Assembly: GCF_000334895.1 (NCBI RefSeq)
Contig: NZ_BAFM01000002.1
Location: forward strand, 1-64,000
Source: Halococcus agarilyticus
GTDB taxonomy: Archaea > Halobacteriota > Halobacteria > Halobacteriales > Halococcaceae
Reading direction: 5' to 3'
Length of the DNA stretch: 64,000 bases
Position 1 is the first letter of the stretch, and every line of letters begins with the position of its first letter. The notes beneath the pieces are model-generated. The model worked only from the letters and a program-made list of their open reading frames with translations, had not been told where the DNA came from and did no database searches. Positions 1 to 59,872 of this stretch are shown in pieces. The position numbers and the translations under genes are program-made.

Positions 1-181
1 GAAGGGCGAGGACGCGAGTGAAACGAGCGCCCCGAGGGCTTCGGCGGTGGTGGCGGTTGCGGAAAGCGCTAGCGACTGTACCGCGAGCGCCCGTCAGGGC
101 GCGAGCGGGTGTTTTTGGTGGAGATTTTTGCGAGGAGTGGTGGGCGAGCGAAGCGAGCGCACCCGACGAAGTAAAAAGGTC
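1..181 (-). repeat. Stop-proximal dispersed element, copy 1 (cut by window edge)
   Basis: Non-coding sequence that starts directly after the stop codon of the first cdc48 gene and runs away from it on the minus strand. Read in that sense it has a T-run (173-177), a GC-rich imperfect stem-loop, an A-run, a second A-run before ACACCCGCTCG, and then the GCCGAAGCCCTCG core shared with the six other copies. The left end is cut by the window. I see no protein-coding signal in it. Confidence 0.8.
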
Positions 182-10009: not shown

Positions 10010-10666
10010 TCAGCCGAGCCCGAGCAGCGAGCGGAGCGAGCGGGTCTTCACGCCGCATTCCTCGCGGTACTCGCAGTGTTCGCATTTCGCACTGTCGTCG
10101 AGGCGCGGCGGCGGTCCGTCGATCGATTCGAGCGTTCGGACCGCGCGACGGTAGGCCGCCTTTCGCCGCGTGGTGAGCGGGACTTCCCGAACGATTCCGT
10201 GGGTCGGGTACTCGACGAACGCCCGTTCGACCGGCGTCTCGCGCTCCCAGGCGAGCGCCTTCGCGGCCGCGACGGCGTGGACAGTCTGAGAGTGCCAGAC
10301 GCCGTTTTCGGGCGGGCTGCCGGCCGATAGCAGCGACGGGGTGGGCGAATCGAGTTCGAGCACTTTGTGAGCGATCCCGCGACACTCCTTGCCGGTGAGG
10401 AAGACGTCGCGCGCGTCGGGGCGACAGAGCGCGTCGAACGCATCGAGGCGCGCCTTCGCACACGAGAGATTCGAGCGGTACTGGGTCGGCGTGACCGCGA
10501 TCGGTTCGCTCGCGAGATCAGCGCCGTCGAGGAGATCGGGATACCGGAAGGCGAGGTCACGGCGCTCTTCGACCTCGGGCGGCGGATCGCGGTCGTCGTC
10601 CTGCCATCGGTAGTAGCACTTCCGGGGGCAGTACGCCGCCGTTCGAAGGTCGCTGAACGCGTGCAT
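10010..10666 (-). CDS. Solitary Cas4-like RecB-family nuclease
   Basis: A 218-residue PD-(D/E)XK nuclease-fold protein resembling Cas4/Dna2. It has N-terminal Cys residues in AYCPRKCYYR (13 and 17) and a C-terminal cluster CEHCEYREECG, the layout of a 4Fe-4S Cas4. VEYPTHGIVREVPLT probably carries the catalytic Glu/Lys region. No CRISPR array or other cas gene is in the window, so it is a stand-alone haloarchaeal Cas4-like protein, perhaps acting in DNA repair or end processing. It converges with the Sua5 gene (3 bases between stops). Confidence 0.82.
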   Translation of the reverse strand: MHAFSDLRTAAYCPRKCYYRWQDDDRDPPPEVEERRDLAFRYPDLLDGADLASEPIAVTPTQYRSNLSCAKARLDAFDALCRPDARDVFLTGKECRGIAHKVLELDSPTPSLLSAGSPPENGVWHSQTVHAVAAAKALAWERETPVERAFVEYPTHGIVREVPLTTRRKAAYRRAVRTLESIDGPPPRLDDSAKCEHCEYREECGVKTRSLRSLLGLG

Positions 10667-10699
10667 ACCACGCGGTGGTCGCGGCTTCGGTGATAAACG

Positions 10700-11156
10700 C
10701 TCGCACGGTGAGGCGGTTGCGGTGGTGGAGCGGTAGCGGTGGCGGTGTGTTGGCGGTGGTGGTAGCGGTGGCGGTGTGTTGGCGGTGGCGGTGTGTTGGC
10801 GGTGGCATGGTGGCGCGGTGCGGAGCCTGGCGTCCTGACGAACGAAGTGAGTCGAGGCTCAGGAGAGCGTTGCTCTCCTGGCGGATGAAGGGCGACGGCG
10901 TGAGCGGTGGGTGGCGCGAACGTAGTGAGCGCCGCCGAGCGAACGGGGAGCGGAGCGACCCGTGAGCAACGCGAGCGCCCGAGGGCTTCGGCGGTGCTGT
11001 ACGGGGCGGTTGCGGGGTGGTCGCGGGGAGTGCCAGCAGTTCTACCGCGAAGCGACCGCAGGGAGCGAGCGGGTGTTTTTAGCGTCGATTTTTGCAAGGA
11101 GTGGTGCCCGCAGCGCGCCGCAGGCGCGCGAGGACACCCGACGCAGTAAAAAGGTA
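10700..11156 (-). repeat. Stop-proximal dispersed element, copy 2
   Basis: Fills most of the space between the Cas4-like gene and the second cdc48. In minus-strand sense it begins within a few bases of the cdc48 stop with a T-run, an imperfect stem-loop holding a nested GCGCGCC-GCA-GGCGCGC hairpin (11113-11129), GCAAAAA, then CTAAAAACACCCGCTCG and the GCCGAAGCCCTCG core, a perfect 8+3+8 hairpin (10861-10879), and a tail of ACCGC-type repeats. No coding signal is seen. Confidence 0.85.
10735..10805. repeat. 29-base tandem repeat in the element tail
   Basis: A direct tandem repeat with a 29-base unit beginning AGCGGTGGCGGTGTGTTGG at 10735 and again at 10764, followed by a third partial unit ending near 10805. 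It forms the distal, low-complexity end of the neighbouring dispersed element and probably arose by slippage. Confidence 0.85.
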
Positions 11157-13382
11157 CTACTGGAAGCCGATCCGACCGCCCGCCCGGTCGCGGCCGGTGT
11201 CGGTCCCGCCGCTCTCGAACTCCTCGGCCATCCGATCGTAGTAGTCGAGGATGTCGTCGGTGATGGTCGGGCGGACCGAGTCGAGCGCCGACCGGAAGTG
11301 ACGCATCTCGACGGTTTCGGCCTCCGAGTCGTCCCGGAGCGCGTGGATCGCAGCCTCGCGTGCGATGGATTCGAGATCGCTCCCCACGTAGCCGTCGGTG
11401 ATCTCGGCCATCTCGCGCAGGCTCACGTCCGCCGCGAGCGGCGTGTCGTCGGTGTGGATGCCGAGGATGCGCTCGCGGCCCTCGACGTCGGGCTGGCCCA
11501 CCATCACGAGCCTGTCGAATCTCCCGGAGCGGATCAGCGCGGGATCGATCATGTCCGGTCGGTTGGTCGCGCCGATCACCATCACGTTCTTCATGTCCTC
11601 CAGGCCGTCGAGCTCCGTGAGGAGCTGGTTCACGACCCGCTCGGAGACGTTCGAACCGACGTCGCCGCCACGGCTCGGAGCCAGACTGTCGAGCTCGTCG
11701 AAGAAGATCACGGTTGGCGAAACCTGCCGGGCCTTCCGGAACGTCTGGCGGATCGCCTTCTCCGACTCGCCGACCCACTTCGAGAGCAACTGGGGTCCCC
11801 GCACCGAGATGAAGTTGGCGTTGGTCTCGTTCGCGACCGCCTTCGCCATCAGGGTCTTGCCCGTTCCGGGCGGTCCGTAGAGCAACACGCCCGAGGGTGG
11901 CTCGATCCCCAACCTCGTGAATCGATCGGGGTTCGAGAGCGGCCACTCGACGGATTCTTTGACCTGGCCCTTCGCGTCGTCGAGCCCGCCGACGTCGTCC
12001 CACGTGATCTTCGGGAGTTCGACGAGCACCTCACGCATCGCGCTCGGCGAGACCTCGTTCAGCGCCCCGTCGAAGTCGTCGCGCTTGATGATCATCCGGT
12101 CGATCAGCGACGGCGGCACCTCCTCGCGGTCGAGGTCGATCTCGGGGAGATACCTCCGCAAGGCCTTCATCGCCGACTCCTTCGTGAGGCTCTCGATGTC
12201 GGCCCCGACGAACCCGTGGGTCTCGTCCGCGAGGTTCGCGAGGTTGACGTCGTCCGAGAGCGGCATTCCGCGCGTGTGGATCCGGAGGATCTCCTCGCGG
12301 CCGCGCTCGTCAGGTACTCCAATTTCGATTTCCCTGTCGAACCGGCCGGGCCGGCGGAGCGCGGGATCCACGCTGTCGACGCGGTTGGTGGCGGCGATCA
12401 CGATGACCTGACCGCGGCTTTCGAGCCCGTCCATCATCGTCAGGAGCTGGGCGACCACGCGGCGCTCGACCTCGCCGGTGACGTCCTCGCGCTTTGGCGC
12501 GATCGAGTCGAGCTCGTCGATGAAGATGATCGCGGGCGACTCCTCGGTGGCGTCCTCGAAGATCTCCCGCAACTGCTGTTCGCTTTCCCCATAGTACTTC
12601 GAGATGATCTCCGGACCGGCGATCGAGAAGAAACTCGCTGAGGTCTCGTTCGCGACCGCCTTCGCGAGGAGGGTCTTCCCGGTTCCCGGGGGACCGTGGA
12701 GCAGCACGCCCTGGGGCGGCTCGATCCCGAGCTTCTGGAAGATCTGGGGGTGTTTCATCGGGAGCTCGACCATCTCGCGCACCCGCTGAATCTCGCTGTC
12801 GAGCCCGCCGATGTCCTCATAGGTGATTCCCCCTCCAGTTTTCTCGAACCCCGAGATCGGCTCTTCGCGGAGTTCGACCTCGGTGTCCTCGGTGACGAGC
12901 GCCACGCCATCGGGATCGGTCTCGACCGCGATCAGCGGGATCGCCTGGCCCGGCGAGCGCATGAACGGGTGGTTGGTCGAGCTCATCACGGGGACGATGT
13001 CGCGCTCGACCACCGGGCGCTTCAGGATCTGGCGCTTGACCATCCCGGCGGCGTCGGAGCCGAACTGGACCGAGGCCTCCTCGGGCGGCGCGAGCACCAG
13101 CTTGTCGGCCTTTCGTTCCTCGGCCTTCCGGATCTCGACGCGCTCGCCGATGCTCACGTCGGCGTTCTGCCGCGTGAACCCGTCGATACGAACGGTATCG
13201 GTGTTCCAGTCCTGACGATCCGCGCGCCAGACCTTCGCGGCGGTGGTGTCGCCGCCCTCGATCTCGATGATGTCGCCCGGCGAGAGCTTGAGATGCAGCA
13301 GGGTGTCGGGATCTAACCGGGCGATGCCACGGCCCGAGTCGTTCGGGTACGCCTTCGCCACCTCCAGTTGGACTTCGTTCAT
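11157..13382 (-). CDS. Cdc48/VCP-type AAA ATPase (paralogue 2)
   Basis: Full-length 741-residue Cdc48/VAT homologue with an N-terminal double-psi barrel and substrate-recognition domain, then D1 and D2 AAA modules, each with GPPGTGKT and a FIDELD or FFDELD Walker B. Arginine-finger motifs ([10 protein letters not shown] and IRSGRFDR) are intact. It ends in GFQ, similar to the tail of paralogue 1. Unlike paralogue 1 it is monocistronic as far as seen, divergent from LarC. Both paralogues have the same non-coding element right after their stop codon, although the coding sequences are clearly diverged. Confidence 0.96.
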
Positions 13383-16858: not shown

Positions 16859-17554
16859 GTGAGCGATCCGATCCCGACGGGCTGTGCGACCGTCGACGAC
16901 CTCCTCGGCGGCGGCCTGGCGCGTGGGGCCATCACCCAGGTGTACGGCCCGCCGGCGGCCGGCAAGACCAACATCGCGCTGTCAGCGGCAGTCGACGTCG
17001 CTGCCGGCGGCGGGACGGTCTGCTATCTCGACACCGAGGGGCTCTCAGCCGAGCGGTTCGAGCAGATCGCGGGGGCACGCGACGCCGATCTCGCCGACCT
17101 CTCCTCGCGGATCGTGGTCTCCGAGGCGCTCGATTTCACGGAGCAGGAGGAGGCGGTTCGGGACGCCGAACAGCTCGCCGAGCGCGCGTCGCTGATCGTG
17201 CTCGACAGCGCGACGGGGTTCTACCGGCTGGAACGCACCACCGAGGAGAGCGGCGAGACCCTCCGGCGAGTGGGTCGCCAGCTCACTCATCTCCTCGGGC
17301 TCGCGCGCCGGCACGACCTCGCGGTGCTCGTCACGAACCAGGTGTTCTCCGATCCGGAGTCCGAGTCCGGCCGCGCCAGGCCGCTCGGCGGTCACACCCT
17401 CGCGCACCTGACCGGCGTGATCGTCCGGCTCGAACGGTTCAGAGCGGGAAACCGTCGTGCGACGCTCGAAAAGCACCCTGCGAAGGCCGCCGGTGACACC
17501 GTTCGATTCGCGATCACGGATACGGGGCTCGAAGCCGTCGAGGAGGAGGTGTAG
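16859..17554 (+). CDS. radB: RadB, RadA/RecA paralogue
   Basis: A 231-residue RadB, the euryarchaeal RecA-fold paralogue that assists RadA in homologous recombination. It starts at GTG 16859 with the typical PIPTGCATVDDLLGGG, Walker A GPPAAGKT at 30-37 and Walker B SLIVLDSATGFYRL. It lacks the N-terminal HhH domain of RadA, as expected. Other motifs are VLVTNQVFSD and RPLGGHTLAH. It is followed by the non-coding element shared with the convergent CBS gene. Confidence 0.94.
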   Translation: MSDPIPTGCATVDDLLGGGLARGAITQVYGPPAAGKTNIALSAAVDVAAGGGTVCYLDTEGLSAERFEQIAGARDADLADLSSRIVVSEALDFTEQEEAVRDAEQLAERASLIVLDSATGFYRLERTTEESGETLRRVGRQLTHLLGLARRHDLAVLVTNQVFSDPESESGRARPLGGHTLAHLTGVIVRLERFRAGNRRATLEKHPAKAAGDTVRFAITDTGLEAVEEEV

Positions 17555-17559
17555 CGGCT

Positions 17560-18015
17560 GCGGTGGTGGCGGTTGCGGATGCGGGGCGGATGCGGTGCGG
17601 GCCTGGAGGGAGAAGGGCGAGGGCGCGAGTGAACGAAGTGAACGAGCGCCCGAGGGCTTCGGCGGTGCGGGGCGGTTGCGGGGCGGTTGCGGGGCTGGTG
17701 GATGTGGAGCGGTTGCGGCTGCGGACCTCGGTGGATCGAGGGCGAGCGACCGCAGGGAGCGAGGGCTCGGGCGGTGCTGTGCAGGAAGGTTGCGGGGAGG
17801 CTGGTGATTGTACCGCGAGCGAACGAGCGGGAGTTTTTGGTCCACCGGAAGACGCTTCGCGTCTTCCGAGCTCTGCCTCACTTCGTTCGGCAGAACAGGT
17901 TTTTGCAAGTGGGGTCGGCGGAACCGCTTCGCGGTTCCGCCTGCTCGTAGGACGCAGAGCGTCCCACGCTGGTCAAGCGAGCGCGACCCCCCCCCCGCAG
18001 TAAAAAAGTGGGCCT
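17560..18015 (-). repeat. Stop-proximal dispersed element, copy 3 (two cores)
   Basis: Fills the gap between radB and the CBS-HPF gene. In minus sense it begins at the CBS stop with a T-run (about 18001-18006), a stem-loop, GCAAAAACC and the core, and holds two core units. Its loops contain extra perfect hairpins: 17846-17868 (GGAAGACG stem), 17917-17941 (10-bp stem around CTTCG) and 17950-17964. It ends in GCGGTTGCGG-rich sequence at the radB side. No gene is seen. Confidence 0.85.
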
Positions 18016-19158
18016 CTAGATCTGATTGAGCTTCCGGAGGAGCTGACCCTGACGTTCGGCGTCGCTCCTGATGCCCTTCTGTTCGAGCACGTTGCGTTCG
18101 AGTTTGTCGAGCGCGACCCGGAAGGCGCTGTCAGCGCCGTAGCCCTCGCCGGTACCGGCGACCTGGCCCTGATCCGTTCGGAGGCGGATCTGGGTCTGGA
18201 TCAGCGGCGTGCCGCGGAGTTTTTCTTTGTGTTTGTGAAAGCGGACGTGGGCGTGCTGGACCTGCATCTCCTGGTACTTGTCCGCGACCTGGGTGATCGA
18301 CTCGCGGATCGACTCCCGGGTGATGGTGTCCAGCAGGTCGATGTTGGTGATCTGGACGTCCATGTGGTCCTCCTCGGTGTAGCTGAGCGCACGGAGGACG
18401 TCGGTCTTGGTGAGCACGCCCACGACCGTCCGATCGTCGTCAGTCGGGGTGACGACGACGCCGTTGTAATCGTTGTCGAGCATCCGGGTGACCGCCTCGC
18501 GGACGGACGACTCGACCTCGATGGTCGCCACGGGGGCATTCATCATGTCGTAGATCGGGATGTCGAGCATCCGTTCGGAGTCGCCCGACCGGTCGCCCTC
18601 GGTGGGCTGGTCCATGCTGCGCACCACGAAGTCGACGAGGTCGTGGGTCGTGACCATTCCGGTGAGGTAGCCCGCCTCGTTCTCGACGGGAAGCCGTGAG
18701 ATGCCGTGCTCGCGGAGGAGGTTGATCGCCCGGCCGACCTGCGTGTCCTCGGTGACGGTGATGACGTCGTCGGTGTGGATCTGCTCGACCACGAGCGCGT
18801 CGAGGTGTTCGAGCACCGCCTCCAAGATTGCGTCGGCGGTGACGATCCCCCAGAGTTCGTCGTTTTCGAACACCGGTGCGACCTTGGTGTTGCCCTCGAC
18901 GAGCATCCGCGCGACGTCCCGAACGTCCGCCGTACGATCGATGGTCGGGGCCGTATCGGCGAGCGCGCTCACTTTCGTCGAGTCCTCGACGTGAGACTGC
19001 ATCAGCGCGCGCTGGGTGATCACGCCGGCGTACTCGCCGTCGTTGACGACGATGATCCCGCGCGGGTTCTGCTCTTCGAAGATCGCGCGCACTTTCCCGA
19101 GACGCTCGTCGCTCGTGACCTCGGCGTGGTCCGGGGTCGCGATGTCGGCAATATCCAT
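18016..19158 (-). CDS. Four-CBS protein fused to an HPF/RaiA-like domain
   Basis: A 380-residue soluble protein with four CBS motifs in two Bateman modules (about residues 8-55, 70-120, 125-180, 200-265), followed by a domain of about 100 residues that resembles ribosome hibernation factor HPF/YfiA (DVQITNIDLL, VRFHKHKEKLRG, GYGADSAFRVALDKLERN). CBS pairs usually sense adenylates, so the fusion suggests nucleotide-controlled binding to ribosomes or RNA; this is an inference. ATG 19158 is used; GTG 19167 is an alternative. It converges with radB. Confidence 0.88.
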   Translation of the reverse strand: MDIADIATPDHAEVTSDERLGKVRAIFEEQNPRGIIVVNDGEYAGVITQRALMQSHVEDSTKVSALADTAPTIDRTADVRDVARMLVEGNTKVAPVFENDELWGIVTADAILEAVLEHLDALVVEQIHTDDVITVTEDTQVGRAINLLREHGISRLPVENEAGYLTGMVTTHDLVDFVVRSMDQPTEGDRSGDSERMLDIPIYDMMNAPVATIEVESSVREAVTRMLDNDYNGVVVTPTDDDRTVVGVLTKTDVLRALSYTEEDHMDVQITNIDLLDTITRESIRESITQVADKYQEMQVQHAHVRFHKHKEKLRGTPLIQTQIRLRTDQGQVAGTGEGYGADSAFRVALDKLERNVLEQKGIRSDAERQGQLLRKLNQI

Positions 19159-39823: not shown

Positions 39824-40213
39824 ATGCCTACCGTAGAATACGTCAACTACGAAGTGTTCGACGACCAGGGCTGGGACCTCGAGGACGACGACCTGTTCGA
39901 GAAGGCCGAAGAGGCCGACCTCGGCGACGAGGACTACGGCACGCTCGACGTCAACGAGTCCGAGTACATCCTCGAAGCCGCCGAGGCCCAGGGCTACGAC
40001 TGGCCGTTCTCGTGTCGCGCCGGCGCGTGTGCGAACTGCGCCGCCATCGTCAAGGAGGGCGAGATCGACATGGACATGCAGCAGATCCTCTCGGACGAGG
40101 AGGTCGACGACCGCAACGTCCGCCTGACCTGCATCGGCAGCCCCGCCGCCGACACCGTGCAGATCGTCTACAACGCGAAACACCTGGATTACCTCCAGAA
40201 CCGCGTTATCTGA
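39824..40213 (+). CDS. fdx: Halobacterial-type 2Fe-2S ferredoxin
   Basis: A 129-residue canonical halobacterial ferredoxin. It has the acidic N-terminal insertion (ending about residue 42) typical of salt-adapted ferredoxins, then [12 protein letters not shown] and a fourth Cys in RLTCIGSP for the [2Fe-2S] cluster. It is the main electron carrier for 2-oxoacid oxidoreductases in haloarchaea. ATG 39824 matches the family; GTG 39821 would add one residue. It is followed directly by a stop-proximal non-coding element. Confidence 0.96.
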
Positions 40214-40540
40214 AACGACTTTTTTACACGGGGGCCTCGCGCTCCCTACGGTCGCGCTCAACCCCCGTCCAAAAACCTCGACTAAAAACACCCGCTCGCT
40301 CGGCTTCGCCTCGCTCGCGGTGGAACCCCTAGCCTTCTCCACAACCGCACTACACAGCACCGCCGAAGCCCTCGCTCGTGTCACTCGCTCGCCCTTCATC
40401 CACCAGGAGAGTAACACTCTCCTGAGCCTCACCTCACTTCGTTCGATGAGACGCCAGGCCCCGCACCGCTACGCCACCGCGACCGCACCGCTACCGCCGC
40501 CGAACCGCAACCGCTATCCGACAGAGATCGCTTTCTACGG
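40214..40540 (+). repeat. Stop-proximal dispersed element, copy 4
   Basis: Starts 6 bases after the ferredoxin stop with six T (40220-40225), a stem CGGGGG (40229-40234) paired with CCCCCG (40262-40267), five A (40271-40275), CGACTAAAAACACCCGCTCG, the GCCGAAGCCCTCG core, a perfect hairpin AGGAGAGT-AAC-ACTCTCCT (40405-40423), GACGCCAGG, and an ACCGC-rich tail to about 40535. No gene; it ends at the NUDIX start. Confidence 0.87.
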
Positions 40541-40546
40541 TTCCTC

Positions 40547-40981
40547 ATGAGTTGGCGAGAGATCAGGCCGGTCGCGCTCGCAGCGGTCCGGCGGGAGAAC
40601 GGCGAGCTTCTGGTCTCGAAGGATCACGAACCAGGCGAGGACGAGCCGTTCTACCGGCTCATCGGCGGCGGGGTCGAGTTCGGCGAACACAGTTGCGAGG
40701 CAGTCGTCCGGGAGTTCCGCGAGGAGCTCGACGTCGAGCTCACGAACGTCGGCCTCGTCGGCACTCACGAGAACGTCTTCACGTTCGACGGCGAGCAGGG
40801 CCACGAGATCTGGCGGGTGTACGAGGGCGACATCGCCGAGGACTGGCCGTACGAGCGCGATCGATTCGAGGGCCACGAGCCCGAACTCGACGAGACCTAC
40901 GAGGCGACGTGGGTGGCCCCCGAGCAATTACGAAACGACGTGACGTTCTACGATCCGGTGGTGCTCGACGACCTCGACTGA
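40547..40981 (+). CDS. NUDIX hydrolase
   Basis: A 144-residue NUDIX pyrophosphatase. The Nudix box runs from GGGVEFGEHSCEAVV to REFREELDVEL, with Gly/Glu/Arg/Glu positions intact. No extra domain. It may clean up damaged nucleotides or nucleotide sugars; the substrate is not evident. It is bracketed by two dispersed elements (copies 4 and 5). Confidence 0.9.
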   Translation: MSWREIRPVALAAVRRENGELLVSKDHEPGEDEPFYRLIGGGVEFGEHSCEAVVREFREELDVELTNVGLVGTHENVFTFDGEQGHEIWRVYEGDIAEDWPYERDRFEGHEPELDETYEATWVAPEQLRNDVTFYDPVVLDDLD

Positions 40982-41230
40982 GGGCGGCCAGCGGGGTGGT
41001 GCGGTAGCGGTGCGGTGCCTGGTGGATGAAGGGCGAGCGAGCGGAGCGAGCGAGGGCTTCGGCGGTGCTGGGCGTCGCTGTGCTGGATGGTCGCGGAGAG
41101 CGTCAGCAGTTCTACCGCGAGCGAACGGAGTGAGCGAGCGGGAGTTTTTCATGAACGTTTTTGCAAGCGGGGGTCGCGCGAGCGACCGCAGGAAGCGAGC
41201 GCGATCCCCCCGCAGTAAAAAGGTTCGGGT
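40982..41230 (-). repeat. Stop-proximal dispersed element, copy 5
   Basis: Lies between the NUDIX and PhoU genes and abuts the PhoU stop. In minus sense it has a T-run (plus-strand A-run 41217-41221), a C/G stem with a nested GCGACC loop, GCAAAAACG, a degenerate TGAAAAA, the CGCGGTAGAACTGCTGACGCTCTCCGCG-like stretch (in pieces) and GCCGAAGCCCTCG core. The aggagag hairpin seen in copies 2, 4 and 6 is absent; the tail is short. No gene. Confidence 0.85.
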
Positions 41231-41902
41231 TCAATAGATGAGCTCGTCGTCGTTCTCGACCATGTAGAGCGTCCGTGCGGAGATGTTGACCGCGTGATCG
41301 CCGATGCGTTCGAGATCGCGGATCGTCAGCAGGAGTCGCGACACGTCGGCCATCATCTGGTCGACGGTCTCGCCGGCGTCGAGTTCGGTCTCGATCAGAT
41401 CCCGGACGACGACGCTCGACGCGCGCTCACAGCGGTCGTCGAGGTCGTCGTCGCGGGCGTCGATGGCGTAGCAGGCGTCGACGTCCTCCTCGGCGTAGGC
41501 GGTCATGGCGTTCTCGACCATCTCGACGGTGAAATCGCCGATCCCCTGGACGTCGACCTCGGGGAAGACGTCGCGTTCGGCCTGGAGGGTGTACTCGCCG
41601 AGGTTGGTGGCGAGATCCGCGATGCGTTCGAGATCGGTGATGATCTTGAACGAGGAGGCGATGAAGCGGAGATCGCCCGCGACCGGCTGCTGGAGCGCGA
41701 ACAGGTCGATACAGCTGCCTTCGAGATCGAGGTACATCCGGTTGATCTCGGCGTCACCCTCGATGACCTCCCGCGCGGTCGTCTCGTCCTTGCTGGCGAG
41801 CGCGTCGAGTCCCAGCCGGAGGCGTTCGAGAACGATCTCGCTCATGTAGAGCACGTCCTCGCGGAGATCGTCGAGTTGCTCTTGGTAGCTTTCGCGGGGC
41901 AT
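41231..41902 (-). CDS. phoU: PhoU phosphate-signalling protein
   Basis: A 223-residue all-helical PhoU with two tandem PhoU repeats (about 10-100 and 115-210) and the metal-binding E/DxxxD motifs (TDLERIADLATNLGEY and RDLERIGDHAVNIS). PhoU proteins restrain phosphate uptake when phosphate is plentiful. It is divergent from the AbrB-PhoU fusion (256 bases apart), with AT-rich promoters between them. Pst transport genes are not in the window, but a PiT transporter is 1.5 kb away. Confidence 0.94.
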   Translation of the reverse strand: MPRESYQEQLDDLREDVLYMSEIVLERLRLGLDALASKDETTAREVIEGDAEINRMYLDLEGSCIDLFALQQPVAGDLRFIASSFKIITDLERIADLATNLGEYTLQAERDVFPEVDVQGIGDFTVEMVENAMTAYAEEDVDACYAIDARDDDLDDRCERASSVVVRDLIETELDAGETVDQMMADVSRLLLTIRDLERIGDHAVNISARTLYMVENDDELIY

Positions 41903-42158: not shown

Positions 42159-43154
42159 ATGGAGACGCGCAAGGTCCAGGTCACGGGTGGGTCGACCTAC
42201 ACCGTGTCGTTGCCGAAGTCGTGGGCGACGGACAACGGCGTCAGCGCCGGGAGCGAAGTCGAGTTCTACCCCGAGGACGAGTCGCTGTTGCTCGCCCCCC
42301 GGACCGAGGAGACCACGGCCGAGGGAACGCTCGACGTCACCGACCTCGAAGGACCGGAACTCACGCGCGCGGTCGTGATGATGTACGTCAACGGATTCGA
42401 CGTCATCACCCTCGAGACCGCGAGCGTCGACGCCGCCCAGCGCCGGACCATCCGCGAGGCGACGCAGGGGCTCGTGGGGCTCGAAGTCATCGAGGAGACC
42501 TCCGAACGGGTGAGCCTCCAGGATCTCCTCGACTCCTCCGAGCTCTCGATCCACAACGCCATCACCCGGATGCGCCTGGTCTCGCTCACCATGCTCGCGG
42601 ACGCGGTCGAGGCGCTCCGGGCGGGGGACCCCGACCTCGCGGCCGACGTGATCGAGCGCGACGACGACGTCGATCGGCTGTGGTACATGACCGCGCGGGT
42701 GTTCCGGAGCGCGCTCAGGGATCCGGGTGCGGCGACCGACATCGGGCTGTCGCGCGAGACGTGCTTCGACTACCACTCGGCCGCACGCCAGCTCGAACGC
42801 GTCGCCGACCACGCGACCAAGATCGCCGAGGTCGTGACCGACGTCGAGGGTGTCTCCGAGGACGTCGGCGAGGCGCTCGACGCACTTCACGGGGGGGCAG
42901 CGGACGTGGTCGAGACCGCGATGGACGCGCTGCTCGCCGAGAGCGACGACGACGCACTCCGACTCGCGAACGACGCGATGACCGCGATCGACGACATCGA
43001 CGAGCGCGCCCGCGAGGTCGATGGCCTGCTTCGAGACCGCGACCCCGAACGCTCCCAGCGGCTCGGCCTCGTCGTGGACTCGCTCTCCAGAAGCGCCGAT
43101 TATGGAGGAAACATCGCCGAAACCGCGATGCAGAAGGCCGCACCGCAGCCGTAA
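42159..43154 (+). CDS. PhoU-domain regulator with AbrB/SpoVT-type N terminus
   Basis: A 331-residue protein. The first 45 residues (METRKVQVTGGSTYTVSLPKSWATDNGV) form a SpoVT/AbrB swapped-hairpin DNA-binding domain. The rest contains two PhoU-like helical repeats (ERVADHATKIAEVV and SRSADYGGNIAETA motifs). Haloarchaeal proteins of this kind are annotated as phosphate uptake regulators and may bind DNA directly, unlike classic PhoU. ATG 42159 follows a Shine-Dalgarno-like GGAGG; an upstream in-frame ATG at 42001 would cross the TATA box. Confidence 0.91.
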   Translation: METRKVQVTGGSTYTVSLPKSWATDNGVSAGSEVEFYPEDESLLLAPRTEETTAEGTLDVTDLEGPELTRAVVMMYVNGFDVITLETASVDAAQRRTIREATQGLVGLEVIEETSERVSLQDLLDSSELSIHNAITRMRLVSLTMLADAVEALRAGDPDLAADVIERDDDVDRLWYMTARVFRSALRDPGAATDIGLSRETCFDYHSAARQLERVADHATKIAEVVTDVEGVSEDVGEALDALHGGAADVVETAMDALLAESDDDALRLANDAMTAIDDIDERAREVDGLLRDRDPERSQRLGLVVDSLSRSADYGGNIAETAMQKAAPQP

Positions 43155-43685
43155 CCGCCCCCACCTTTTGCTACGGTCGCTCGTTCGCTTCGCTCACTCG
43201 CTCCTGCTCACGGGTCGCTCTGCTCCCCGTTCACTCATCCGGCGGCGCTTCACTACGTTCGCGCTGTCCGCCGCTCGCAAAATGTGGATCAAAAGCCTCC
43301 TCCTTCCCTGTGGTCAGTCGTCGGCCCGCTCACTCGCCTGCGGCTCGTTCGCGGTAGAACCACTATCTCCGCAACCGCCCCGCACAGCACCACCGAAGCC
43401 CTCGCCGCGCGCTCACTCCGTTCGCTATCTCGCTCCCTGCGGTCGGCCACCTCTCCTCGTAAAAACCTCGACTAAAAACACCCGCTCACTCGTGTCTTCG
43501 GCACTCGTTCGCGGTACCATCACTGGCGCTCTCCGCAGCCGCACAGCACCGCCGAAGCCCTCGCTCGCTCCGCTCGCTCGCCCTTCATCCACCAGGAGAG
43601 CACGCTCTCCTGAGCCCTGCGTTCGCGCCGCGAACACGGGACGCCAGGACCGCCACCGCCCCGCCGGTGGCCGGCGAGCAAAAAC
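43155..43685 (+). repeat. Stop-proximal dispersed element, copy 6 (two cores)
   Basis: Follows the AbrB-PhoU stop. The head is degenerate (TTTTGCTACGG near 43174 and GCTCGCAAAATG near 43276). Two successive core units follow, each with an A-rich CTCG-ACTAAAAACACCCGCTC or similar and CACCGAAGCCCTCG/GCCGAAGCCCTCG. After the second core lies AGGAGAGC-AC-GCTCTCCT (about 43593-43610), then GACGCCAGG and a GCC-rich tail. A T-run on the minus strand (43680-43684) is likely the S8e terminator. Confidence 0.83.
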
Positions 43686-43691
43686 GGCGGG

Positions 43692-44063
43692 CTACTCTTC
43701 GAGAACGGCGTTGACCTGGCCGTCCTGGCCGGGCCGGGAGGTCACGCGCGCGAGCCCTTCGCTCGTCTCGATCAACGCGCCCCTGGTCACGATGTTCCGG
43801 CGGACGTAGTTCGGGTTCGCGGGGTTCTCCGCGACGCCCTCGATCGTCGCGTGGGTGGTGCCGTCGTCGGTCGCGACGCTCGCGCTGTCGGTCGATATCG
43901 CGCGGACCTTCTCGGTGTTGCCGCGCGCGTCGACGGTCTTCAGGGCTCGATCGCCGACCTCGGTTTCGGTCGCCTCGCTGCCGAGTTCGTGTTTTCGTTT
44001 GCCGCGGATCGGGCGTCGTCGTCCGCCGGTACGCTTCCGGACCGAGCGTCCCTGGTCTTTCAT
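43692..44063 (-). CDS. rps8e: 30S ribosomal protein S8e
   Basis: A 123-residue archaeal/eukaryotic S8e with the typical basic start (QGRSVRKRTGGRRRPIRGKRKHELG) and the RAISTDSASVATDDGTTHATIEGV, NPANPNYVRRNIVTRGALIET signature. The single archaeal domain is complete. A T-run (minus strand) follows the stop within about 10 bases. It diverges from the DUF2240 gene. Confidence 0.97.
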   Translation of the reverse strand: MKDQGRSVRKRTGGRRRPIRGKRKHELGSEATETEVGDRALKTVDARGNTEKVRAISTDSASVATDDGTTHATIEGVAENPANPNYVRRNIVTRGALIETSEGLARVTSRPGQDGQVNAVLEE

Positions 44064-57362: not shown

Positions 57363-58511
57363 ATGGATGACAGCGAACCGCCCGCCGAGGGACCGCCACC
57401 CGAGGCGCTCGCGGGCTTCTTTCGCGTCACCGAAATCACCGCCGAGAACGGCCGTCTCCAGTACTACGGCGAGCCGCTCGTCGGTGGACAGCGGCTCGAA
57501 CGCCGGCTCTGGCCGGTGTTTCGCGATCGGGGGTACGAGGTTCGGCTGACGAGCGAGCCGAGACAGGACCCCTTGACCGGCGTCGAGACCGGTGGATCGC
57601 GATACGTCCTCGTCGCCACGCCACGCTCGACCGGGATCGACGGAGTGCCGTGGCGAAACCTCCTCTTTGCGGCGCTCACGGTACTCACGACGCTGTACGC
57701 TGGCGCACGCTGGTACGGCTCCGTCCGGGGGTTCGGGGAGTTCCTCGATGCCCCCCTCGATGTGCTCGCCGGGTGGCCGTTCTCGCTCGCCGTCCTCTTC
57801 GTGCTCGGCGTGCACGAACTGGGTCACTACGCGCTGAGCCGGTATCACGGCGTCGACGCGAGCCTGCCCTACTTCATCCCGCTGCCGAACGTGATCGGGA
57901 CGATGGGCGCGGTGATCCGGATGCGCGGGCGGATGCCAGACCGGAAGACCCTGTTCGACATCGGCGTCGCCGGCCCGCTCGCCGGGCTCGTCGCGGCCTG
58001 CACAGTGACGATCGTCGGGCTCCATCTCGAACCGGTGACCGAGCCGGTGATCCCGATCGCGTTCAACTACCCGCCCCTGATCCAGGCCATCGCCGCCCTC
58101 ACCGGCCAGCAGCTCGGGTACGGCTCGGGCACGATCGTCAACCCCGTGGTGTTCGCGGGCTGGGTCGGGATGTTCGTCACCTTTCTGAATCTGATCCCTG
58201 TGGGCCAGCTCGACGGCGGCCACCTCGTGCGCGCGATGGTCGGCAAGCGCCACGAGACCGTCGGTGCGCTGGTCCCGGCCGCGCTGTTCGGGCTCGCGGC
58301 CTACCTCTACTACGTTCGGGAGGCCGCGTTCAACGCCGTCTTCCTCTGGGTGCTCTGGGGCGTGTTCAGCCTCGGGATCGCGTACGCCGGTCCCGCGACG
58401 CCGATCTACGACGACGCGCTCGACGCGAAACGCACGGCACTCGGCCTCGTCACCTTCGTGCTCGGCGCGCTCTGTTTCACGCCGGTGCCGTTCGAGCTGG
58501 TCGTGCCGTAG
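57363..58511 (+). CDS. Site-2 protease family (M50) membrane protein
   Basis: A 382-residue membrane metalloprotease. HELGH at 151-155 in LFVLGVHELGHYALS gives two zinc ligands and the catalytic Glu; LNLIPVGQLDGGHLVRA near 275 gives the third. It has about eight membrane segments and no PDZ domain. Its N-terminal 95 residues are a soluble acidic domain, found in plant EGY-like and haloarchaeal S2P. ATG 57363 gives the full soluble domain. It is followed at once by copy 7 of the dispersed element. Confidence 0.92.
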   Translation: MDDSEPPAEGPPPEALAGFFRVTEITAENGRLQYYGEPLVGGQRLERRLWPVFRDRGYEVRLTSEPRQDPLTGVETGGSRYVLVATPRSTGIDGVPWRNLLFAALTVLTTLYAGARWYGSVRGFGEFLDAPLDVLAGWPFSLAVLFVLGVHELGHYALSRYHGVDASLPYFIPLPNVIGTMGAVIRMRGRMPDRKTLFDIGVAGPLAGLVAACTVTIVGLHLEPVTEPVIPIAFNYPPLIQAIAALTGQQLGYGSGTIVNPVVFAGWVGMFVTFLNLIPVGQLDGGHLVRAMVGKRHETVGALVPAALFGLAAYLYYVREAAFNAVFLWVLWGVFSLGIAYAGPATPIYDDALDAKRTALGLVTFVLGALCFTPVPFELVVP

Positions 58512-58995
58512 GACCACCCACTTTTTTGCGGGGAGGGGTGTCCTCGCGCGCCTGCGGCGCGCTGCGGGCACCCCTCCCCGCAAAAACCTGGACTAAAAAC
58601 ACCCGCTCGCTCGCCCACGGCTCGCGGTGCGATCGCTGGCGCTCTCCGCGACCGCCACGCACAGCACCGCGGAAGCCCTCGCTCACACCGGAAGAGCGGA
58701 GCTCTTCCGTGCTCTCGTTCGCCTTCGTCTTCGCGCGGCTTCGCCGCGCGAACGGTCCGCGGGACCTTCGGTCCCGCGCTACTCACGAGAACTCCGGTCT
58801 CGCTCGCGGTAGAACTGCTGGCGCTCCCACAACCGCCCCGCACAGCACCGCAGAAGCCCTCGCTCCCGACGGTCGCTCGCCCTTCATCCGCCAGGTGACG
58901 CCCCGCACAGCAGCCGCCACCACGCCGCAGCCGCCACCGCCTCCGCACCGCAGCCACACCGCAACCGCCACCACACCACAACCACTGCGCCCGCA
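58512..58995 (+). repeat. Stop-proximal dispersed element, copy 7 (two cores)
   Basis: Follows the S2P stop by 10 bases. Head: perfect 18-base inverted repeat (see separate entry). Then CTGGACTAAAAACACCCGCTCG, core GCGGAAGCCCTCG, several inserted hairpins (GAAGAGC/GCTCTTC at about 58690; GCGCGGC/GCCGCGC at 58735; GCGGGACC/GGTCCCGC at 58758), a second core with GCAGAAGCCCTCG at about 58850, CTTCATCCGCCAGG without the aggagag hairpin, and a CCGCAGCCGCCACC-type tail to about 58990. No gene is seen. Confidence 0.86.
58523..58586. terminator. Perfect 18-bp stem-loop after the S2P gene
   Basis: Arms 58523-58540 and 58569-58586 are exact reverse complements (TTTTTGCGGGGAGGGGTG on the left), with a 28-base loop holding a nested GCGCGC hairpin. 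The left arm starts in a T6 run 10 bases after the stop, and the right arm ends in an A-run, so either strand presents U-rich RNA at this point. It can act as a two-way terminator or 3'-end stabiliser. Confidence 0.75.
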
Positions 58996-59002
58996 CAGCA
59001 CG

Positions 59003-59872
59003 CTACCCGTGAGTGTAGCCCCGATCGTCGAGTGGGTCGCCATCGAGCGTCACGCCGCTCTCGACGACCGTGCCGATCCGCGAAACGTCGACGGGTGCGG
59101 CCTCGCGGGCGGTATCGAGCGCGCGCTCGGGGACGGTGAACAGGAGTTCGAAGTCCTCGCCGAAGAAGACGCTCAGTTCGCGCTGCTCGGCCGGATCGGC
59201 GGCGATCTCCTGAACGACATCGGCGACGGGCAACGGGGTATCGACCGCGAACCCGCAGTCGCTCGCGGCGGCGAGCTGGTGGAGCGAGCGCGCGAGTCCG
59301 TCGCTCACGTCCATCATCGCGCCCGCGTGCGGAGCGATCACCTCGCCCGCCGCGACCCGCGGTGTGAACCGGAAGAGGTCGTTCGCGCGGTCGTGCTCGC
59401 CCCCATCGAACAGCCGCAGCGCCGCACCGCTCCGCCCGAGCCGGCCGGTCACGCAGACTGCCTCGCCGGCCGCCGCCCCCGAGCGCAACACGGGGTCGTC
59501 GGTCCGACCGAGCGCGGTCGTCGCCGTCGTGAACTCGTCGTGCGTGTCGAGATCGCCGCCGACGTACTCCGCCCTACAGACCTCGCAGACGTCGCGCGCG
59601 CCGTCGACGAACGCTCTCAAACCACGTTCGTCGAGTTCGGGGGCGGCGTAGACCGCGACCGCTGCCCGAGCTTCGGCCCCCATCGCAGCCACGTCCGACA
59701 GCGACGCGCCGACCGCGCGCCAGCCCGCGGTGTACCGCGTCGTGCCGTCGGGGAAGTCGGTCGTCTCGTGGAGCATATCGGTCGTGAGCACCGACCCGTC
59801 GACGACCGCGCAGTCGTCGCCCGCGGCGGGTACGCTCGTGGCGAGCGCGTCGAGAGCCGCCCGCTCATCCAT
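59003..59872 (-). CDS. thiL: Thiamine-monophosphate kinase
   Basis: A 289-residue ThiL, which phosphorylates thiamine phosphate to thiamine diphosphate, the active cofactor. Seen are GDDCAVVDGSVLTTDMLHE, GWRAVGASLSDVAAMGA, VTGRLGRSGAALRL, AMMDVSDGLARSLHQLA and GEDFELLFTVP, all PurM-fold signatures with the Asp metal ligands. ATG 59872 is used. It converges with the element region after the S2P gene. Confidence 0.94.
   Translation of the reverse strand: MDERAALDALATSVPAAGDDCAVVDGSVLTTDMLHETTDFPDGTTRYTAGWRAVGASLSDVAAMGAEARAAVAVYAAPELDERGLRAFVDGARDVCEVCRAEYVGGDLDTHDEFTTATTALGRTDDPVLRSGAAAGEAVCVTGRLGRSGAALRLFDGGEHDRANDLFRFTPRVAAGEVIAPHAGAMMDVSDGLARSLHQLAAASDCGFAVDTPLPVADVVQEIAADPAEQRELSVFFGEDFELLFTVPERALDTAREAAPVDVSRIGTVVESGVTLDGDPLDDRGYTHG

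Follow-up and report, generated by a model that had tools for sequence, protein, structure and literature searches.

A genus-specific family of BIME-like palindromic repeats with putative two-way terminator heads in Halococcus agarilyticus

Inverted copies of recombinogenic repeats, e.g., rrn operons, serve as endpoints of inversions, and the PATEs of Haloquadratum walsbyi are probably moved by a transposase of the IS200/605 kind. The REP palindrome carries a foot tag that reads GTAG or CGTC (PMC3733652). The intergenic terminator motif of Haloferax volcanii consists of T-stretches, and when a T5C stretch was inserted in that species, termination reached 95% of transcripts (PMC7237163). Here, a dispersed non-coding element of Halococcus agarilyticus is compared with these systems, based on a 64-kb window (the whole stretch of DNA that was analysed, 64,000 nucleotides), the genome that holds it (3.48 Mb, 58 contigs), and related genomes. 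A published description of the family was not found in the open-access literature, a scope outside of which most subscription papers lie.

Composition of the element and structure of its head

All seven loci proposed in the earlier note held the element at about the coordinates given there, with 43155-43685 consisting of two tandem units and 58512-58995 containing a partly duplicated core (Table 1). The element is a composite of a poly-T/hairpin/poly-A head, additional hairpin modules, and an ACCGC-rich tail. The head is laid out as CCAC-T5-7-AC-hairpin-GC-A5-CC-TGG and is followed by the anchor ACTAAAAACACCCGCTC, a hairpin, and CGCGGTAGAACTGCTGGCGCTCTCCGC. The next module reads ACAGCACCGCCGAAGCCCTCG-hairpin-TCGCCCTTCATCCGCCAGG, to which some copies add GGAGAGCAAGCTCTCCTGAGCC..., and copies nest modules of different hairpins.

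Table 1. Copies of the element in the window and parts of the copy at 58512-59002
Feature	Position	Strand	Remarks
Element copy 3' of cdc48 (182-2449, -)	1-181	-	Head 103-182 (R1 match), core module 33-49; core and tail run past contig start
Element copy between cdc48 (11157-13382, -) and gene 10010-10666 (-)	10667-11156	-	Anchor 11067-11083; breakpoint of 29-kb inversion versus relatives
Element copy 3' of CBS-domain gene (18016-19158, -), convergent with 16859-17554 (+)	17555-18015	-	Additional hairpins between A-run and anchor
Element copy between ferredoxin (39824-40213, +) and NUDIX gene (40547-40981, +)	40214-40546	+	Head 40216-40297; second breakpoint of 29-kb inversion
Element copy 3' of PhoU (41231-41902, -), convergent with NUDIX gene	40982-41230	-	Head subtype GAAC..GTTC
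Two tandem units 3' of AbrB/PhoU gene (42159-43154, +), convergent with S8e ribosomal protein gene (43692-44063, -)	43155-43691	+	Anchor of second unit 43471-43487
Element copy 3' of M50/S2P peptidase (57363-58511, +), convergent with AIRS-family gene (59003-59872, -)	58512-59002	+	Core partly duplicated
Head palindrome CCA-C-T6-GC...GC-A5-CC-TGG	58518-58591	+	Folding versus shuffles, covariation
Anchor ACTAAAAACACCCGCTC, second poly-A/T tract	58592-58608	+	62 own-genome matches
Core module CACCGCGGAAGCCCTCG	58665-58681	+	Repeated with one change at 58846-58862
ACCGC-rich low-complexity tail, reaching stop of convergent gene	58900-59002	+	Sequence

In the own genome, the anchor was matched 62 times with at most two mismatches and not once in the reversed control, and the core module CACCGCCGAAGCCCTCG was matched 105 times compared to 5 in the control. 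The genome scan with a covariance model of the head, which the earlier note had called for, returned at least 61 matches at E values up to 0.01, a lower bound from 150 scored candidates. Overall, the family amounts to about 100 hairpin-rich, non-coding copies per genome. The counts lie far beyond chance, and since the head carries A5 and T5 runs inside DNA of 67% GC, GC content does not explain the element.

A coding element was ruled out, as the heads, at 71-97 nt, vary in length by steps other than multiples of three. Gene duplication was ruled out as a source as well, in agreement with the earlier note, as the flanking genes are largely unrelated. Short tandem arrays of (GGTGGCGGTGTGTTGGC)n and (CCGCTCCGCAACCGCCA)n were present in the tails of the copy at 10700-10800 of the window and of the copy at L055, and the copy number of the arrays varied among copies. 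Recurring hairpin cassettes, e.g., CTCGGAAGACG..CGTCTTCCGGTGG and GGTACGAGGGACGC..GCGTCCCTCGCTACTCG, occurred at fixed insertion points within copies at L040, L052, L057, L069, and L070.

The head is a covarying palindrome. Its bounding triplets were reverse-complementary in 50 of 59 copies, compared to a maximum of 38 in 20,000 shuffles, and the feet seen were CCA/TGG, CGA/TCG, GAA/TTC, GTA/TAC, GGA/TCC, and GCA/TGC. In an alignment of 36 heads, the outermost two pairs showed double changes only and no one-sided standard changes, with a covariation score of 0.171 versus 0.056 for shuffled heads and lower scores for every slid version. Folding of the window head against shuffles resulted in z-scores of -6.7 as DNA and -7.4 as RNA. 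On the strand antisense to the upstream gene, 68% of CGNAG loops had complementary flanks, compared to 28% in coding DNA, with all four bases used at N, and more than half continued into A-G and G-A tandem mismatches. Unusual stability in DNA is established for GNA loops of the d(GCGAAGC) type and for tandem sheared G-A pairs. As a hallmark of the genus, the GNA/GA hairpin was not diagnostic, being only about twofold over the control and found across the order. Between convergent genes at L083 (6384-6459), a variant head forms an almost perfect palindrome, TTTTTACTTCGTCGGGTGTCCT...AGGACACCCGACGAAGTGAAA, with a second arm that is the exact reverse complement of the first.

Placement at genes and taxonomic range

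Genes were called with a custom codon-periodic Markov finder. Among 60 copies with two neighbours, 25 were convergent, 22 tandem (head after the upstream stop), 11 divergent, and 2 in the remaining arrangement, and the anchors of family copies were intergenic. Orientation followed the gene and not the chromosome, as previously suggested, with 28 copies on the plus and 34 on the minus strand. The proposed attachment of the head to stop codons was confirmed for 47 of 60 placeable copies, in which the T-run usually starts 3-13 nt past the stop. The other 13 heads face a divergent gene start, so the element is not locked to 3' ends only. In most of these copies, 42-59 nt separate the T-run from the start codon that follows it, which puts the run immediately before the expected place of a haloarchaeal promoter, and two of the cases are common to relatives (L039 and L104). 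As the T-run is present also at start-facing heads, it belongs to the element and not to a host terminator in which the element landed.

A T5 run within 60 nt of the stop was found at 42 of 47 head-side gene ends (89%), compared to 18 of 218 ends without a copy (8%, a base rate drawn from the window and the loci fetched around copies and not from the whole genome) and 2 of 27 tail-side ends. The host genes in the window encode two CDC48 proteins, a CBS-domain protein, a 2Fe-2S ferredoxin, PhoU, AbrB/MazE-PhoU, and an M50 (S2P) peptidase, matching the earlier reading except for an HPF domain, which was not seen. The gene downstream of the ferredoxin encodes a NUDIX protein. A solo head was found between convergent cdc48 and phoU genes in the relative G007 (L134).

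The family occurred in all 10 genomes of the genus, with almost nothing outside of it. With at most one mismatch, the anchor was found in 17 of 293 genomes of the order, i.e., the 10 of the genus, one sister-genus genome with three matches, and six further genomes with one or two matches apiece. Named records with the anchor were Halococcus morrhuae, H. thailandensis, MAGs, and one Halorarius match. The favoured anchor variants differed by species (CACCC, CTCCC, and CTGCC), as expected under concerted evolution. In one genome, tandem anchor variants 85-90 bp apart appeared twice (G005:C15:151569/151659 and G005:C54:69556/69641), which suggests a local tandem duplication of the head. The phage search yielded no match, and the plasmid search only one weak, unconvincing match of 65 bp. 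Six IMG/VR contigs (L145-L150) contained the bare 17-mer anchor, which may be host contamination or chance.

Exchange between copies

The earlier note had proposed to look for orthologous genes without the element in relatives. Copies were often kept at orthologous gene ends while the head subtype differed, e.g., at PhoU and cdc48. The PhoU copies of the own genome (G000) and G005 are of the GAAC..GTTC type, while those of G004 and G008 are of the CCACCTTTTGC type. At the ferredoxin gene, the head subtype was largely conserved. Where relatives were without a copy, the absence coincided with rearranged neighbours among the few orthologous sites compared.

Compared to G005, positions 11157-40213 of the window are inverted, and each end of the inversion falls within a copy. 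The two exchanged junctions recur in G004, where they are spread over two contigs. The gene ahead of the NUDIX gene at 40547 is that of the ferredoxin in G000 and a cdc48 in the two relatives, with G004 and G005 each having a different one of the two cdc48 genes there. Adjacencies of window gene pairs were broken in 2 of 5 pairs with a copy, compared to 0 of 33 (G004) and 0 of 43 (G005) pairs without one, all of which are small counts. Partners were exchanged at six distinct loci of relatives, where the head gene of one G000 copy is joined to the tail gene of a second copy, with the gene end the same in each case, versus about four distinct pairs that were conserved, after the window's own locus and repeated loci had been removed by hand. 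Part of the reason that breakpoints fall in copies may be that crossovers are tolerated in intergenic repeats and nowhere else.

Over 140 bases, three inverted pairs with a spacing of 3.0-3.8 kb were 99-100% identical, compared to at most 85% identity in all 1,879 distant copy pairs. In one of them, identity breaks off abruptly inside the element on both sides. Such a pattern indicates gene conversion or an exchange that is very recent, with draft-assembly error as a caveat. The effect was confined to these three pairs, and when every pair within 10 kb was taken into account, the general test of whether near copies are more alike was not significant (p 0.26). The near-identical pairs at L062 (C2:95316+/99133-), L070 (C14:24112-/27844+), and L056 (C17:54261-/57289+), 3-4 kb apart, flank housekeeping genes (malic enzyme/phosphotransacetylase, DnaJ, and a proteasome subunit), and the segments between them could flip as invertible segments.

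Interpretation and comparison with known systems

The element is best read, with a probability of roughly 0.66, as a genus-specific family of BIME-like composite extragenic palindromic repeats that act as two-way terminators and are kept by recombination. Among the options offered in the earlier note, a gene-converted element bearing a terminator fits best, given the placement of the copies, the palindromic head, the T5 runs at head-side gene ends, the near-identical inverted pairs, and the partner exchange. By analogy with the T-stretches of Haloferax volcanii, the T5-7 run of the head would stop the upstream gene just past its stop codon. On the opposite strand, the two A5 tracts would be read as T5 runs (GTTTTTAG/GTTTTTGC) and would stop the convergent gene or antisense transcription entering via the tail. 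The head arms pair, which places the two T-runs on either side of a hairpin, and the solo head of G007 represents the minimal form. Recombination between copies would be what mainly keeps the family alike: gene conversion would homogenise the cores and swap head subtypes, while crossovers within copies would invert or translocate the intervening DNA and leave a terminator at each new junction. The head is a putative terminator, presumably kept by selection for its termination, and the exchange is probably performed by homologous recombination and not by a dedicated enzyme. Against the terminator reading, the 13 heads that face a divergent gene start have no upstream gene needing a terminator there.

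The high copy number, the palindromic ends, the sharp head boundary, and the strictly intergenic placement would also suit a non-autonomous mobile element (REP/REPIN, IS200/605-derived MITE, or PATE-like) that is moved by a trans-acting transposase and inserts beside terminators or promoters, and haloarchaea do carry palindromic MITE-like elements such as the PATEs of Haloquadratum. This explanation is nevertheless unlikely. A Y1/RAYT transposase (Y1_Tnp, PF01797) gave 0 matches in the own genome, which is 97.9% complete so that a missed gene is possible, while the same search detected the control genomes of Haloferax volcanii and E. coli. Moreover, copies persist at orthologous sites of species with 75-90% protein identity, a precise empty site was not seen among the few orthologous sites compared, and neither phages nor plasmids provided a convincing carrier. 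The earlier note had considered a mobile element, but recent transposition was not seen, as copies persist at orthologous gene ends and no transposase of this type was detectable.

The strong hairpins, their covariation, and the attachment of most copies to gene 3' ends also agree with a structured RNA, such as the shared 3' UTR or ncRNA of the earlier note, that affects mRNA stability or serves as an sRNA. This explanation is very unlikely, as head lengths vary freely, hairpin subtypes differ between orthologues, 13 copies face a gene start, and the hairpin strand with purine mismatches is antisense to the upstream gene. The T-run also precedes the hairpin, so that most transcripts would end short of it. 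Rfam yielded nothing credible at gathering or permissive thresholds, with no family at the former and only sub-threshold miRNA hairpin matches. Quite improbable, too, is a templated hairpin repeat, in which single-stranded DNA of the antisense strand folds into very stable GNA-loop/tandem G-A hairpins, template switching during replication makes and spreads the palindromes, and the terminator is incidental. While the enriched CGNAG loops with their GA/GA mismatches, the perfect-palindrome variant at L083 6384, and the nested hairpin modules point towards such an origin, it leaves heads with T5 runs 3-13 nt past stops unexplained, and hairpin words of a similar kind are widespread in the order, with this genus at only about twice the control. 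A further-reaching proposal, possible but doubtful, combines dispersal without a transposase with the terminator reading: antisense-strand GNA/tandem-GA hairpins, template switching, and gene conversion would spread a terminator repeat, whose copies would serve as genus-wide permitted crossover points that shuffle neighbourhoods while a two-way terminator is kept at each junction.

If true, the reading of the copies as two-way terminators kept by recombination would provide an archaeal worked example of genome rearrangement without breaking transcription units, in which the breakpoints are repeats with their own terminators. Each genome would also supply dozens of naturally occurring two-way terminator variants whose stems covary, a library for testing termination by archaeal RNA polymerase, and the family would be a clear example of intergenic DNA that evolves in concert although no transposase can be recognised.

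Like REP/BIME sequences, the element is a many-copy intergenic palindrome and a mosaic of hairpin modules, often placed after genes, with roles proposed for REP/BIME in termination and at mRNA ends. Unlike them, its head lies directly against the stop codon and contains tracts of T5 and A5, it is hundreds of bases long, it is archaeal and essentially restricted to one genus, and its genome has no detected RAYT/Y1 transposase. The GTAG/CGTC foot tag was not present at the head feet. With the IS200/605-related PATEs/MITEs of Haloquadratum walsbyi, the element shares its nature as a haloarchaeal non-coding repeat with palindromic ends, but its positions are conserved and an IS200/605-type transposase gene was not detected in its genome. 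As in the archaeal poly-T terminators of Haloferax volcanii (PMC7237163), a non-template run of at least five T lies shortly past the stop, here at 42 of 47 head-side gene ends. In contrast to these terminators, the T-run is part of a dispersed repeat, mirrored by A-runs of the opposite strand and set within a covarying hairpin. The inverted copies are inversion endpoints like those of rrn-type recombinogenic repeats. Unlike rrn operons, however, the copies are short, non-coding, and about 100 per genome, and as each of them carries a terminator-like head, the junctions may stay transcriptionally insulated.
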